Virus record (IMG/VR): IMGVR_UViG_3300028571_000029
Span: 1-61,215 of that record
Length of the DNA: 61,215 bases
Strand: one strand, 5' to 3'
From: a virus
Of the stretch, positions 37,899 to 46,419 are shown in pieces. The notes beneath the pieces were generated by a model that did not search any database, was not told the DNA's origin, and was given only the letters and a program-made list of their open reading frames with translations. The number at the start of each line of letters is the position of its first letter. The first letter of the stretch is position 1. Position numbers and translations under genes: made by a program.

Positions 37899-37946
37899 AT
37901 GTATCGATGGCATTTTGATAAATGTAAAAATAAAGAAATAATATGA
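37899..37946 (+). CDS. possible 15-residue leader peptide
   Basis: ATG 37899 to TGA 37944-37946, sequence MYRWHFDKCKNKEII, overlapping the next ATG by 4 nt. It may only couple translation to the YDSNG-repeat gene. Confidence 0.25.
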   Translation: MYRWHFDKCKNKEII

Positions 37947-38239
37947 AAAACATTTTAGGAAAAACAGAGAATTTACAACTCTTTAATAAAGAGGGTAAAC
38001 TGGTTTATGAGTTTTATAAAAATTCCAATGGATTTAGTTATGAACGCACTTATGATTCCGATGGTAAGAAACTAACCTTTAAAGACTCCAATAGATATAG
38101 TTATGAATTAACCTATGATTCCAATGGTAAGGAACTAACTTACAAAGACTCCAATGGTATAACAAGAGGCTTCGACATTCCTGAATACACAATGGAACAA
38201 CTTGTAGAAAAATTAGGAAATTTTAAGATAAAGAAATAA
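37943..38239 (+). CDS. YDSNG-repeat protein (copy 1)
   Basis: 98 residues. N-terminal NILGKTENLQLFNKEGK, then three repeats of about 20 residues of the form YSYE-x-TYDSNGKELTYKDSN, and a tail GITRGFDIPEYT. Relatives are at 45316, 45724 and the 3' part of 46721. The pattern resembles short tandem-repeat (RHS/MORN-like) modules. Function unknown; probably early. Confidence 0.65.
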   Translation: MKNILGKTENLQLFNKEGKLVYEFYKNSNGFSYERTYDSDGKKLTFKDSNRYSYELTYDSNGKELTYKDSNGITRGFDIPEYTMEQLVEKLGNFKIKK

Positions 38240-38630: not shown

Positions 38631-39569
38631 ATGAAAAGATTAACAGAACAAGAAGTTATTCAACGATTTACTGAAGTTCATAAAGGTAAGTATAATTATT
38701 CAAAAGTATTATATAATAATAGTCAAATAAAAGTAGAAATAATTTGTCCAATTCATGGAAGTTGGATGCAGACACCATCTGATCATTTTAGAAGACATGG
38801 ATGTTTAAAATGTGATATAGAAACTCGTAAAGAACTTAAATATTCATTACAAGAGCTCTTACAAAAGTGTAAAAATAAATACGGAGAAATATATGATTAT
38901 ACAAATATACCAAAATACTCAGGAATAACTTCTGAAATTTATATTAAATGTAATATACATAATAATATAATTAATACGACTTTTAGCAGACACCTACAAG
39001 GAAAAGGAGGGTGTAAAGAATGTCAATATAAAGGTAACGCTAATAGTTTAAAATTAGGAGCTAATATTTTTATAGAAGAATCAAAAAAGATTCATGGGAA
39101 TAAATATGATTATTCAAAAGTAGTTTATAAAAATAATTCAACTAAAATAGAAATAATATGTAAAAAACATGGAGCTTTTTTTCAAACTCCAAATGCTCAT
39201 AAAGATAATAAACAAGGGTGCCCTAGTTGTAAAGAATCAAAAGGAGAATCTAGAATAAGGGTTTTTTTAGAATCAAATAATATACAGTTTATAAATCAAC
39301 ATTCTTACGAAGATTGTAAATATAAAAACAAATTATTGTTTGATTTTTATTTACCTAAATATAATCTAATAATAGAATTTGATGGAATGCAACATTATGA
39401 ACCAATACCATGGTTACATGGAAGGCCTGATTATAATTTTGAATATCAGCAATTAAAAGATAAAATAAAAAATGAGTACTGTATTAAAAATAATATTTCT
39501 TTATTGAGAATTAAATATACTGATATTAATAATATTGAAAGAATTATTACAAATTATTTGGGAATATAA
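38631..39569 (+). CDS. putative homing endonuclease with zinc-ribbon repeats and Vsr-like domain
   Basis: 312 residues. Three zinc-ribbon-like repeats of about 65 residues, with wording like KYNYSKVLYNNSQIKVEIIC-PIHG and a closing GCLKC/GCKEC/GCPSC. The C-terminal Vsr-/EDxHD-like fold includes LLFDFYLPKYNLIIEFDGMQHY and LLRI. Such free-standing endonucleases are mobile in T4-like phages and sit next to the genes they invade. It is directly upstream of the interrupted phosphatase gene. Start is the first ATG after the T run. Confidence 0.72.
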   Translation: MKRLTEQEVIQRFTEVHKGKYNYSKVLYNNSQIKVEIICPIHGSWMQTPSDHFRRHGCLKCDIETRKELKYSLQELLQKCKNKYGEIYDYTNIPKYSGITSEIYIKCNIHNNIINTTFSRHLQGKGGCKECQYKGNANSLKLGANIFIEESKKIHGNKYDYSKVVYKNNSTKIEIICKKHGAFFQTPNAHKDNKQGCPSCKESKGESRIRVFLESNNIQFINQHSYEDCKYKNKLLFDFYLPKYNLIIEFDGMQHYEPIPWLHGRPDYNFEYQQLKDKIKNEYCIKNNISLLRIKYTDINNIERIITNYLGI

Positions 39570-39617: not shown

Positions 39618-40285
39618 ATGTCAACGATTAAAATTAATTTATCCGCGGGTACCAGATTATGGTTCACCGCGGACACGTAACACATTACAATCACGCTAAC
39701 ATCTGTTCTGCCACAACTCAGTGGACCGATCCTGTAACTTGTAGAGAATTTAAATCATTGGAACGTATGAATGCTCACCTAGTTGGTAATATCAACGAAG
39801 TGGTTGGACAAGATGATATATTATTCCATTTAGGAGATTGGAGTTTTGGAGGATTCGAACAAATCGAACTATTCAGAAATCAAATCGTATGCCGAAATAT
39901 TCACCTCATTACAGGTAATCATGATCACCATATTGAGCGAAATAAAGATAATATTCAATCAATATTCAGTTCAGTAAATAAATACTTAGAACTAAATGTT
40001 AAATTTAACCAGGATACGATGTTAGCTGGTTCTGCTGATTTTGTTTTAATGCATTACCCTATTGCTAGTTGGAATAATATGGCTAGAAATTCAATTCATT
40101 TACATGGACATGTTCACTTACCTTCAAATCAAAGGATTGGTAAAGGTAAAATGATGGATGTTGGGGTGGATGGTAATGGATTAAATCCAATTAGTTTGAG
40201 TGAGGTTTTAAAGCTAATGAAGAACCAACCAGTTAAATCATTATTAACATTTGACCATCACGAGATGGTTGAGAATTATAAATAA
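39618..40285 (+). CDS. calcineurin-like phosphatase, interrupted in its first catalytic motif
   Basis: The frame from ATG 39618 reads MSTIKINLSAGTRLWFTADT and stops at TAA 39678. The rest of the enzyme continues in another frame from 39680: THYNHANIC, then HLGDWSFGG, GNHDHH, MHYPI and HGHVH, all calcineurin-like motifs. Skipping 5 nt after the ACG at 39675-39677 (landing on ACA, both Thr) restores exactly FTADTHYNH, with the metal-binding D-x-H. A GC-rich hairpin TCCGCGG/CCGCGGA (39642-39648 with 39667-39673, inner stem ACCA/TGGT) ends one base before the ACG. This suggests programmed bypassing. An insertion pseudogene, or a start at 39659 (lacking the first motif), are alternatives. Confidence 0.65.
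39642..39673 (+). promoter_or_regulatory. hairpin at the phosphatase interruption
   Basis: Stem TCCGCGG/CCGCGGA (7 bp) plus inner ACCA/TGGT, loop GATTA. Its 3' edge is 4 nt before the TAA. Very GC-rich for this genome. It occupies codons for conserved residues, so a coding function plus a structural function is likely. Confidence 0.7.
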
Positions 40286-40688: not shown

Positions 40689-41837
40689 ATGGAAAATAAT
40701 AACTCAGTTTGCTTTGTAGCTCGAATTAATGAAATAAAACCAATTGAAGGAGCAGACAATATCGAACAAGCAATTGTTGGTGGATGGAGATGTATTGTTA
40801 AAAAAGGAGCACATATTGTAGATGATTTAGTAGTATGTACTACTACAGACGCTGTTATACCCCAAAAACTATCAGATGCTCTAAACGTAACCAATTACTT
40901 ACGTAAAGATGGACGTGTACGTACTGTTAAATTGAAAGGAGTATATAGTGAATGTTTAATCATATCTTTAGATAGCTTACCTCAAATGAAGAAGCAATTC
41001 GCTAAAGGTATAGGTTACTATTGGGATGAAGGTGAAGATTTAATGGAATTCTTAAAAATATTTAAATACGAACCTCCAGTTAAAATGGTTCAACTGGCTT
41101 CAGGACGTAAAATTAAATATAAAGATAATCCTAACTTTCATATTTACTATAAATTTCCAAACCTAAAGAACGTACCTGGAATGTTTACTGAAAATGATAT
41201 AGTAGAGATTACTCGTAAGATACACGGAACAAATGCTCGTTATGGTATTGTTAGAAAAACTAAATTATCATTCTTAGATAAGATTAAAAAATTCTTCGGT
41301 AATAAATGGATTGAATACGAATTTATAGTTGGATCTCACAATGTTGAGAAAGGATCTGAATCACAAGGTTTCTATGACACTAATGTTTGGTATGATATTG
41401 AGAAAAAATATGACATCAAAACCAAGCTTTGGAACTATATTAAGATATACAATCCTGAAATTATTGGTGATGGAGTTATTCTTTATGGAGAAATATATGG
41501 AGCCGGTATTCAAAAAGGATATGATTATGGTTTAAAAGAAATCAAATTTGCTGGTTTTGATGTAAAAGCTGATGGGGAGTATTTAGATACATACTATACA
41601 TATCTTACTATTATGGATGAATTAGAATTACCATATGTTGAAATATTATATCAAGGATATTGGTCTCAAGAAATTCAAGATAAATTTACCTTTAATAATT
41701 TCATTCCAGGAACTAAAGTACCAGAAGAAGGTATTGTAATTAAACATGTATCAGGAGATCGTTCTTTAATTGCTAAGGTTATTAATCCCGACTATAGTAT
41801 TTACAGTGAAAAACACAATGTTGGAGACAGCCACTAA
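40689..41837 (+). CDS. RNA ligase, DRB0094/Rnl5-like
   Basis: 382 residues. The N-terminal domain begins ARINEIKPIEGADNIEQAIV, as in the DRB0094 family. The ligase domain shows motif I KIHGTNAR with nucleotidyl Lys177, and later EGIVIK and LIAKVIN for motifs IV and V. These ligases seal 3'-OH/5'-phosphate nicks in RNA; end healing is provided by a phosphatase and a kinase, the two neighbours here. Its stop codon lies in the loop of a strong hairpin (41824-41851). Unlike its neighbours it is uninterrupted. Confidence 0.85.
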   Translation: MENNNSVCFVARINEIKPIEGADNIEQAIVGGWRCIVKKGAHIVDDLVVCTTTDAVIPQKLSDALNVTNYLRKDGRVRTVKLKGVYSECLIISLDSLPQMKKQFAKGIGYYWDEGEDLMEFLKIFKYEPPVKMVQLASGRKIKYKDNPNFHIYYKFPNLKNVPGMFTENDIVEITRKIHGTNARYGIVRKTKLSFLDKIKKFFGNKWIEYEFIVGSHNVEKGSESQGFYDTNVWYDIEKKYDIKTKLWNYIKIYNPEIIGDGVILYGEIYGAGIQKGYDYGLKEIKFAGFDVKADGEYLDTYYTYLTIMDELELPYVEILYQGYWSQEIQDKFTFNNFIPGTKVPEEGIVIKHVSGDRSLIAKVINPDYSIYSEKHNVGDSH

Positions 41838-41891: not shown

Positions 41892-42311
41892 ATGGATAAT
41901 TTAAAACAAGATAGAAGCCCTCTAAAGGAATTGTTCCTTCTAAGAGGGCTTCCGTAGCTAGGAGCAGGTAAATCAACATTAGCTAAATCATTAAATGAAG
42001 TATATTTTGAAGCTGATCAATACTTTATTGAGTTTCATGAATATAAATTTGATTCTGCTGGATTAAAAACAGCACACAAGTGGTGTCAGTTAAGAACTGA
42101 ACACGCTATGGAGGATGAATGGCCTCGTATTGTGGTTTCAAATACCTTCACTCAAGAATGGGAAATGAAAAATTACTATGAATTAGCTGAAAAATATGGA
42201 TATAGAGTATATTCATTAATTGTAGAGAATAGACACAATGGAGTAAATCAGCATAATGTTCCAGCTGACAAAATAGAACAAATGCGTAATCGATTTGAAG
42301 TTAAAATATGA
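41892..42311 (+). CDS. P-loop kinase (polynucleotide-kinase-like), interrupted at the P-loop
   Basis: The frame from ATG 41892 reads MDNLKQDRSPLKELFLLRGL-P, then TAG at 41955-41957 and CTA, then continues in the same frame GAGKSTLAKSLNEVYFEADQYF to TGA 42311. Removing the 6 nt TAGCTA gives RGLPGAGKST, a perfect Walker A; with readthrough two extra residues split the motif. The remainder has KWCQLRTEH and VSNTFTQEWE, as in phage zeta/Pnk-like kinases. A 16-bp hairpin lies just before the stop (41914-41952). Next to phosphatase and RNA ligase it would be the 5'-kinase of RNA repair. A nonsense-mutant allele is the alternative. Confidence 0.65.
41914..41952 (+). promoter_or_regulatory. hairpin at the kinase interruption
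   Basis: GAAGCCCTCT (41914-41923) pairs with AGAGGGCTTC (41943-41952), and AAGGAA with TTCCTT inside, loop TTG. Its 3' edge is 2 nt before the TAG. The same arrangement as in the phosphatase gene: hairpin, NCG codon, TAR stop, C. Confidence 0.75.
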
Positions 42312-45315: not shown

Positions 45316-45651
45316 ATGACAAATTTAGAAAAAAACATTTTAGGAAAAACAGAAGATTTAGAACTCTTTAATAAAAAGGGTAAAAAGGTTTATAAGTTTT
45401 ATAAATATTCCGATGGATTTAGTTATGAATACACCTATGATTCCAATGGTAATATATTAACCTTTAAAAACTCCAATGGATATAGTTATGAATATACCAG
45501 AGATTCCAATGGTAACGAACTAACTTTTAAAGATTCCAATGGATATAGTCGTGAATATACCAGAGATTCCAATGGTAATCAATTAGCCTATAAAGATTCC
45601 AGTGGATATAGTTATGATTCTAATGGTAATTTATTAACTCTTAAAAATTAA
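45316..45651 (+). CDS. YDSNG-repeat protein (copy 2)
   Basis: 111 residues: NILGKTEDLELFNKKGKKVY, then about four repeats YSYEYTYDSNGNILTFKNSN. DNA of the repeats is also tandem. More than 85% like copy 3 just downstream, including the leader, so this is a recent tandem duplication. Confidence 0.68.
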   Translation: MTNLEKNILGKTEDLELFNKKGKKVYKFYKYSDGFSYEYTYDSNGNILTFKNSNGYSYEYTRDSNGNELTFKDSNGYSREYTRDSNGNQLAYKDSSGYSYDSNGNLLTLKN

Positions 45652-45659
45652 TAAAAGAG

Positions 45660-45691
45660 TTGCTCCTTCGGGAGCTTCTTCTTATATTTAG
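45660..45691 (+). promoter_or_regulatory. early promoter with UUCG hairpin in the spacer
   Basis: TTG 45660-45662, then GCTCC-TTCG-GGAGC within the 20-nt spacer, then TATATTTAG 45683-45691. The hairpin followed by TTCTTCTT may end the upstream transcript, so one short module terminates and initiates. Confidence 0.72.
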
Positions 45692-45723
45692 GTATATTAA
45701 TTAAACAAACAAAATAAAAGGTT

Positions 45724-46071
45724 ATGACAAATTTAGAAAAAAACATTTTAGGAAAAACAGAAGATTTAGAACTCTTTAATAAAAAGGGTAAAAAGGTTTA
45801 TGAGTTTTACAAAAATTCCAATGGATTTAGTTATGAATGCACTTATGATTCTAATGGTAAGGAATTAACCTTTAAAAACTCCAATGGATATAGTTCTGAA
45901 TATACCAGAGATTCCAATGGTAACGAACTAACTTTTAAAGATTCCAATGGATATAGTCGTGAATATACCAGAGATTCCAATGGTAATCAATTAGCCTATA
46001 AAGATTCCAATGGATATAGTTCTGAATGCACTTATGATTCTAATGGTAATTTATTAACTCTTAAAAATTAA
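45724..46071 (+). CDS. YDSNG-repeat protein (copy 3)
   Basis: 115 residues with one more complete repeat than copy 2 (SSECTYDSNGNLLTLKN at the end). Upstream and downstream promoter modules are duplicated with the gene. Function unknown. Confidence 0.68.
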   Translation: MTNLEKNILGKTEDLELFNKKGKKVYEFYKNSNGFSYECTYDSNGKELTFKNSNGYSSEYTRDSNGNELTFKDSNGYSREYTRDSNGNQLAYKDSNGYSSECTYDSNGNLLTLKN

Positions 46072-46079
46072 TAAAAGAG

Positions 46080-46111
46080 TTGCTCCTTCGGGAGCTTCTT
46101 CTTATATTTAG
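46080..46111 (+). promoter_or_regulatory. early promoter with UUCG hairpin in the spacer
   Basis: Copy of the 45660 module: TTG 46080-46082, UUCG hairpin, TATATTTAG 46103-46111. Confidence 0.72.
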
Positions 46112-46143
46112 GTATATTAATTAAACAAACAAAATAAAAGGTT

Positions 46144-46419
46144 ATGAACATTCAAGAAATTCAATTAAATCAAATCTCTCAAATTTACATTGGTAAGGAT
46201 CGCGTTTGCAGATGCGGGTGTGCAGGGGAGTATGTTTCAACTTCTTACATGGAGGATCCAAGAAGCGATGTTGATGATAAATTAGCAGGGTCAAGACTTA
46301 AGCGTGCTAAGAAGCTGGCTTTAAATACTACCTCTGAAGTTGATTATCAAGATACGTATATTAACGTCAGTTATGGAAAGGATAGGGTGATTACTATTTA
46401 TTTAGATGAAGTCAAATAA
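46144..46419 (+). CDS. small hypothetical protein with CRCGC motif
   Basis: 91 residues. GKDRVCRCGCAGEYVSTSYM near residue 16-35, then SRLKRAKKLAL and a repeat GKDRVITIYLDEV. Similar short proteins with a CxCGC core occur in phages. Function unknown. Confidence 0.65.
   Translation: MNIQEIQLNQISQIYIGKDRVCRCGCAGEYVSTSYMEDPRSDVDDKLAGSRLKRAKKLALNTTSEVDYQDTYINVSYGKDRVITIYLDEVK

Follow-up and report, generated by a model that had tools for sequence, protein, structure and literature searches.

Putative hairpin-assisted ribosomal bypassing of 5–11-nucleotide stop-codon inserts in phage kinase and phosphatase genes

In a 61-kb virus record from IMG/VR (61,215 nucleotides, hereafter the window), a P-loop kinase gene and a metallophosphatase gene are each interrupted, within the active-site motif, by a few nucleotides that begin with a stop codon and follow a stable hairpin. 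Elements of this architecture recur in phage contigs, where we distinguish about 70, 60 of them in kinase genes and nine in phosphatase genes (those of the window included). From comparison of these sequences, we consider it very likely that the elements are natural sites of hairpin-assisted programmed ribosomal bypassing over +5 to +11 nucleotides ("stop-hopping").

The interrupted kinase gene of the window lies on the plus strand, as do the phosphatase, endonuclease and RNA ligase genes of the window described below, and extends from an ATG at 41892–41894 to a TGA at 42309–42311. Its 5' open reading frame of 21 codons (41892–41954; MDNLKQDRSPLKELFLLRGLP) encodes the first half of the Walker A motif and ends in the proposed take-off codon, CCG (Pro, 41952–41954). 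The 3' arm of a 39-nt stem-loop of 10 + 6 base-pairs (41914–41952; GAAGCCCTCT-A-AAGGAA-TTG-TTCCTT-CTA-AGAGGGCTTC) consists of the RGL(P) codons up to this take-off codon. The putatively bypassed 6-nt gap, TAGCTA (41955–41960), comprises the stop TAG (41955–41957) and the proposed landing triplet CTA (41958–41960), after which the unchanged frame continues as GGA GCA GGT AAA TCA ACA through a 3' open reading frame of 116 amino acids (41961–42311; GAGKST..., Pfam AAA_33). Folding predictions gave the hairpin a z-score of −3.65; none of 200 dinucleotide shuffles was equally stable, nor was any of 2000 synonymous variants of the first 21 codons, drawn with the codon usage of the phage. The initial annotation had described a Walker A motif split by TAGCTA behind a 16-bp hairpin, which the sequence, the folding and the intact relatives confirm; its proposal that removal of the 6 nt restores the motif holds as well, the result being RGLPGAGKST, as in intact relatives.

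The interrupted phosphatase gene lies about 2 kb upstream of the kinase gene. Its 5' open reading frame of 20 codons (MSTIKINLSAGTRLWFTADT; 39618–39677, from the ATG at 39618) includes a stem-loop (TCCGCGG ... CCGCGGA, 39642–39673) and ends in the take-off codon ACG (Thr, 39675–39677), which together with the 5-nt gap TAACA occupies 39675–39682. Here the stop TAA (39678–39680) overlaps the proposed landing triplet ACA (Thr, 39680–39682), and decoding would resume with CAT TAC AAT at 39683, in a different frame from the 5' part, to read the 3' open reading frame (HYNHANIC..., Pfam Metallophos_2, 39683–40285). The nine distinct homologous phosphatase hairpins range from −17 to −24 kcal/mol, and the window's, taken alone, is less extreme than that of the kinase, as 30 of 2000 synonymous recodings were as stable. 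The initial annotation had regarded the geometries of the two genes as matching, which is correct for the layout of hairpin, NCG and stop, but the insert of the phosphatase is of 5 nt rather than 6. The rule "NCG, TAR, C" that it derived proved partly accidental: across the elements take-off codons are CCN or ACN, all three stop codons occur, and the C after the stop usually opens the landing codon. Just 5' of the phosphatase gene is a putative free-standing homing endonuclease gene (38631–39569; DUF723 + DUF4379), and an intact RNA ligase gene (40689–41837; Pfam RNA_ligase, PF09414) lies between the two interrupted genes. The window also contains two clusters of small open reading frames with SNGYSYEYTRDSNGN-type repeats (37943–38239 and 45316–46419).

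Pattern scans of IMG/VR returned 62, 85 and 9 stretches, which were reduced to the 60 kinase and nine phosphatase elements. They sit only at these two sites, the P-loop of the kinase and the metal site of the phosphatase, and nearly all have a strong hairpin. The search pattern required a stop directly after the take-off codon; the same arrangement is found in loci retrieved by homology alone and in 7-nt elements reached via their endonuclease. Thus, kinase relatives obtained solely by homology (L016–L018) have the stop at the same P-loop position behind a different hairpin, and two phosphatase relatives obtained in the same way (L064, L065) have it at the same DT|H position. When 1.12 Mb were scanned without bias, on both strands, for an open frame, a hairpin, a stop, a synonymous landing codon and a further long open frame, phosphatase and kinase elements took the six top ranks (−18.7 to −18.1 kcal/mol; the next candidate reached −15.3). 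No convincing third target gene emerged when 2.45 Mb of loci, and two long contigs, were likewise scanned without bias. For comparison, we assembled 64–65 distinct intact kinases, in which RG(L/V)PG(A/S)GK(S/T) is present without an insert, and 62 phosphatases with an uninterrupted SDTHxxH.

The 6-nt kinase pattern had only 15 matches in bacterial and archaeal genomes totalling 257 Gb, none in a convincing P-loop kinase and rarely with a YY landing, and on the basis of this control a chance origin of the elements was rejected. Sequencing or assembly error was rejected as well, since identical elements recur in several independent metagenomes. Cultured phages contain kinase relatives of at most 52% identity, and no isolate with an element was found among them, inserts there not having been read record by record. 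On one short contig (L116:1519-2043) the kinase and phosphatase genes are both interrupted, 450 nt apart, and a NUMOD-type endonuclease is encoded upstream of the kinase.

The 60 distinct kinase inserts differ in length, being 5 nt (5), 6 nt (46), 7 nt (3), 8 nt (2), 9 nt (3) or 11 nt (1), and all end exactly at a GGN codon. Continuation into the 3' part accordingly requires no frame shift for inserts of 6 and 9 nt, a shift of +1 for 7 nt and of +2 for 5, 8 and 11 nt. This diversity bears on the possibility that the stop is simply decoded, or slipped past by ordinary frameshifting, so that the P-loop or metal-binding loop would contain one or two additional residues. The 6-nt insert of the window's kinase, which keeps the frame, is compatible with readthrough, and the sequence AGGGGG..CCT TGA C of some elements resembles the +1 site of prfB. 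However, insert lengths of 5, 7, 8 and 11 nt are not divisible by three, which means that neither readthrough nor any one frameshift could account for every element: readthrough predicts a 3' part in the zero frame, which homologues with these inserts do not have, and the +1 frame of a prfB-type shift fits only the 7-nt elements, while most inserts are of 6 nt. Moreover, GxxxxGK[ST] and DTHxxH would be disrupted by the added residues, neither process gives meaning to the landing rule described below, and all three stops are used. We therefore regard decoding or slippage at the stop as very improbable, and the initial annotation's doubt about readthrough is supported, since readthrough fails for the homologous inserts of 5, 7, 8 and 11 nt. 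Kinase elements use TAA (27), TGA (24) and TAG (9), for which reason stop-codon reassignment was rejected.

Some elements carry additional features. In L016:4120-4145 and its relatives, AGGGGGGTGCCTTGAC resembles the frameshift site of prfB, AGGGGGTATCTTTGAC, and a Shine–Dalgarno-like pull may add to the kinase elements. Three kinases (L127, L136, L138) have CCT TAG CCT with weak hairpins (−8 kcal/mol) and further stops close upstream, and may represent another mechanism or a recoded TAG.

What remains constant, at any insert length, is that the insert ends in a triplet able to re-pair with the take-off tRNA. The initial annotation had left open whether the product arises by bypass, by readthrough or not at all; that the last triplet fits the take-off tRNA regardless of length speaks for bypass. 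After a proline codon (CCT 31, CCG 25, CCA 3, CCC 1), the landing triplet is YYN in 54 of the 55 kinase inserts of at least 6 nt, and in 28 of 29 distinct combinations of take-off codon and insert. For 6-nt kinase inserts the landing triplet was unconstrained in the search pattern; the counts take in related sequences, and binomial p values are therefore nominal. Landings in these 55 are CCN (26), CTN (22), TCN (4), TTN (2) and ACN (1), with A (35), G (12) or T (8), and never C, as third base. This spectrum is as would be expected of a tRNA with anticodon UGG, which can form G-C or G.U pairs with landing bases one and two and has U34 for the third; the CTA of the window, which needs a middle G.U pair, belongs to the CTN class common among its homologues. 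Inserts outside the 6-nt class include TGAG|CTA, TGAG|TTA, TAATA|CCA, TAATA|CCT, TAAATA|TCA, TGAAGA|CCG, TAAGTG|CCG and TAAATGAA|TCA. The five 5-nt kinase inserts (L260, L262, L267, L269, L272) are all TGACA after CCG, a spacing related to that of the phosphatase, in which the stop provides the first landing base; overall, six kinase elements land on ACA, where one of the three positions would stay unpaired. In the phosphatases, take-off is from ACN, and the landing triplet is ACA, ACT, GCT or GCG. Their middle landing base was left free in one search, yet is always C, and the first base is A or G, the latter corresponding to a U36.G pair.

The matched codons are mostly synonymous rather than identical (ACG/ACA, ACC/ACT, CCT/CCG), which argues for pairing by a tRNA rather than for a direct repeat in the DNA. 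The same observation weighs against removal of the gap before translation, either as a mini-intron rejoined by RNA-repair enzymes or through precise deletion of the DNA, since such removal does not predict that the last triplet should match the take-off tRNA. An RNA ligase gene does lie beside both genes and the hairpins could direct a nuclease; nevertheless, Rfam contains no match for the elements, and we know of no splicing element of 5–11 nt. Excision at the RNA or DNA level thus appears highly unlikely to us, if not quite negligible.

The hairpin sets interrupted genes apart from intact ones. Within the 48 nt up to the take-off codon, predicted folding energies average −22.3 kcal/mol for interrupted kinases (n = 59; weakest −8.4) versus −2.9 kcal/mol for intact kinases (n = 64; strongest −7.5), with no overlap, and for phosphatases the corresponding values are −19.7 (n = 9) and −3.3 kcal/mol (n = 62). 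Furthermore, 23 distinct kinase hairpins of one register covary, with 34 two-sided pair-change cells compared with 11.2 in shuffles and 2–5 in slid structures. The 3' arm ends at the take-off codon or inside its first bases, so that, with this codon in the P site, the arm would lie in the exit channel, where re-formation of the stem would pull the mRNA backwards. The stretch from the ATG to the P-loop proline has a median of 21 codons in interrupted kinases versus 11 in intact ones, and these roughly ten additional codons make it just long enough for the 5' arm of the hairpin.

Sequence divergence indicates purifying selection on the interrupted genes: 3' frames in the short-kinase family are as long as those of intact kinases, with omega 0.17 for interrupted and 0.22 for intact genes. 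These values are difficult to reconcile with the notion that the inserts inactivate the enzymes, or that internal starts give rise to the 3' parts on their own, a notion for which one could cite an ATG inside the hairpin of the window's phosphatase (39659), in the downstream frame. The full-length open 3' frames and the low omega are found across dozens of lineages, and the hairpin covaries. In addition, the sequence 5' of the gap is the only source of the conserved strand and first Walker glycine of the kinase, and of the DT in the phosphatase metal site; an active enzyme thus requires exact joining of both parts. We therefore give hardly any credence to decaying or split genes, and the absence of a product, which the initial annotation had allowed for, is judged unlikely.

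In the stop-hopping that we propose, a ribosome would read about 20 codons, unwinding the hairpin on its way, and halt with peptidyl-tRNA-Pro (kinase) or peptidyl-tRNA-Thr (phosphatase) in the P site and the A site occupied by the stop codon. In its inferred role as a motor, the 5' stem-loop would re-form while its 3' arm leaves the exit channel, pulling the mRNA backwards; the peptidyl-tRNA would release the take-off codon, and the ribosome would slide over 5–11 nt (6 in the window's kinase, 5 in its phosphatase). The tRNA could then re-pair with the last triplet of the gap (CTA after CCG, with the middle G.U pair, and ACA after ACG), and continued decoding would yield an uninterrupted P-loop or metal-binding motif. 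The hop itself and the identity of the tRNA are inferences, and neither a protein product nor the efficiency of the hop has been shown. Only about 20 residues are made before take-off, and no nascent peptide signal of the gene 60 type is evident, the N-termini of about 21 residues having no KKYK in common. Neither a Thr(UGU) nor a Pro(UGG) tRNA gene is present in the window. A contig with a phosphatase element hopping from ACT to ACA (L113/G001) encodes two tRNAs, one of them Thr(UGU), and one with a kinase element hopping from CCG to CCA (L259/G006) has Pro(UGG) among 23 tRNA genes. tRNA-Pro(UGG) is known to be shift-prone (PMC4519876).

Many elements adjoin genes for homing endonucleases. 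The kinase-linked endonuclease, which combines NUMOD3 repeats with a TnsA-like nuclease domain and has no close full-length relative in cultured phages, is encoded within about 1.2 kb upstream of 27 of 48 distinct interrupted kinases versus one of 63 intact kinases (Fisher p = 1e-11). This count includes only interrupted kinases with sufficient flanking sequence, and leaves out two weak matches 1.7–1.8 kb downstream of intact kinases. A search with this endonuclease recovered 12 close relatives. Every one of them adjoins an interrupted rather than an intact kinase, and two of these loci revealed new 7-nt inserts. The sole intact kinase with a NUMOD3 endonuclease directly upstream (L028:4054-4947) is either an exception to the immunity idea or an altered target. 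Other elements are accompanied by GIY-YIG (L131), HNH (L169), NUMOD1 or NUMOD3 (L160, L126, L282) or LAGLIDADG (L241) proteins; about half of the kinase elements, including that of the window, have no recognised endonuclease adjoining. For the window's phosphatase-type endonuclease, linkage to the interrupted allele is mixed: its close relatives in L236–L238 flank an intact phosphatase with the motif altered to HYCHS (HYCHSS), possibly a resistant allele without an insert. As a check on co-conversion, pairwise identity at the gap was no more than slightly raised just upstream, at 0.76 versus 0.69 downstream, in interrupted kinases, and 0.71 versus 0.70 in intact pairs. An insert as an endonuclease-resistant allele was proposed earlier for gene 60 and mobA. 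The present inserts are probably homing-resistant alleles as well, which spread with the endonucleases and would persist by destroying targets at conserved active-site codons; this is not proved, cleavage being inferred.

The closest known counterpart is gene 60 of phage T4, with its matched codons, a stop after take-off and a 5' stem-loop motor (PMC5009743; PMC11194080). As in gene 60, the stop directly follows the take-off codon, the landing codon would be read by the same tRNA, and a 5' stem-loop is expected to pull the mRNA; as in gene 60 and mobA, the insert lies in a conserved phage enzyme gene beside a homing endonuclease, against which it is proposed to protect. However, gene 60 has a gap of 50 nt, rather than 5–11 nt, and uses a Gly tRNA with an identical landing codon, rather than Pro or Thr tRNAs with synonymous or wobble-paired landings. 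The present elements, whose 5' stem directly abuts the take-off codon, also lack an evident take-off stem-loop or nascent-peptide signal, and occur in P-loop kinases and metallophosphatases as dozens of alleles with several unrelated endonuclease types. They are best explained as working like gene 60 while forming a distinct short class, and there is no evidence of common descent.

As is proposed for the phage elements, the peptidyl-tRNA in synthetic stop-hops of E. coli reporters (ref. 54 of the review PMC5009743) jumps a stop to a near or matched codon a few nucleotides downstream, but those were built constructs, whereas the present elements are natural and conserved and have a presumably stimulatory hairpin. 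The byp elements of Magnusiomyces mitochondria are, in a similar way, blocks of nucleotides within genes that are skipped in translation and spread over many sites. They are reported to act independently of mRNA context and place an unused codon in the A site, in contrast to the phage-borne elements, with two sites, a stop codon and a near-universal hairpin. Finally, the prfB frameshift is, like the proposed hop, recoding at a sense codon before a stop, and some kinase elements have an AGGGGG-like purine run just upstream, which phosphatase elements lack. However, prfB shifts by +1 on overlapping codons under a Shine–Dalgarno pull, whereas re-pairing in the present elements would be non-overlapping, over 5–11 nt.

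A 2016 recoding review considered natural in-frame stop hops to be unknown and noted a long-standing presumption that shorter gene 60 relatives with matched codons exist (PMC5009743). In the open-access literature (subscription papers and preprints were outside our scope), we found no earlier report of a natural short stop-hop; the bypassing described there comprises gene 60, the mitochondrial byps, synthetic stop-hops, and suggestions for Streptomyces phage Hau3 and mycobacteriophage Corndog. That hairpin-driven stop-hops are widespread in nature, and owe their spread among phages, as cleavage-proof alleles at conserved active-site codons, to several unrelated homing endonucleases, is a broader claim, which we think reasonably likely and hold with less assurance than the bypassing itself.

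If this is true, the elements are minimal translational "introns" of 5–11 nt, and show how little is needed for a gene to tolerate an insert. The longer interrupted kinases (about 277 amino acids past the gap; L143:3857-4687) have a tRNA ligase phosphodiesterase domain at the C terminus, suggesting a role in RNA repair, and use of the elements in RNA-repair enzymes might make expression respond to the state of tRNAs or release factors. With about 70 distinct natural examples and a readable grammar (hairpin, take-off codon, stop, 5–11 nt, landing codon), the elements are a compact system in which to study how a folding mRNA moves the ribosome. If the stop-hop reading is correct, standard annotation calls working phage genes broken.
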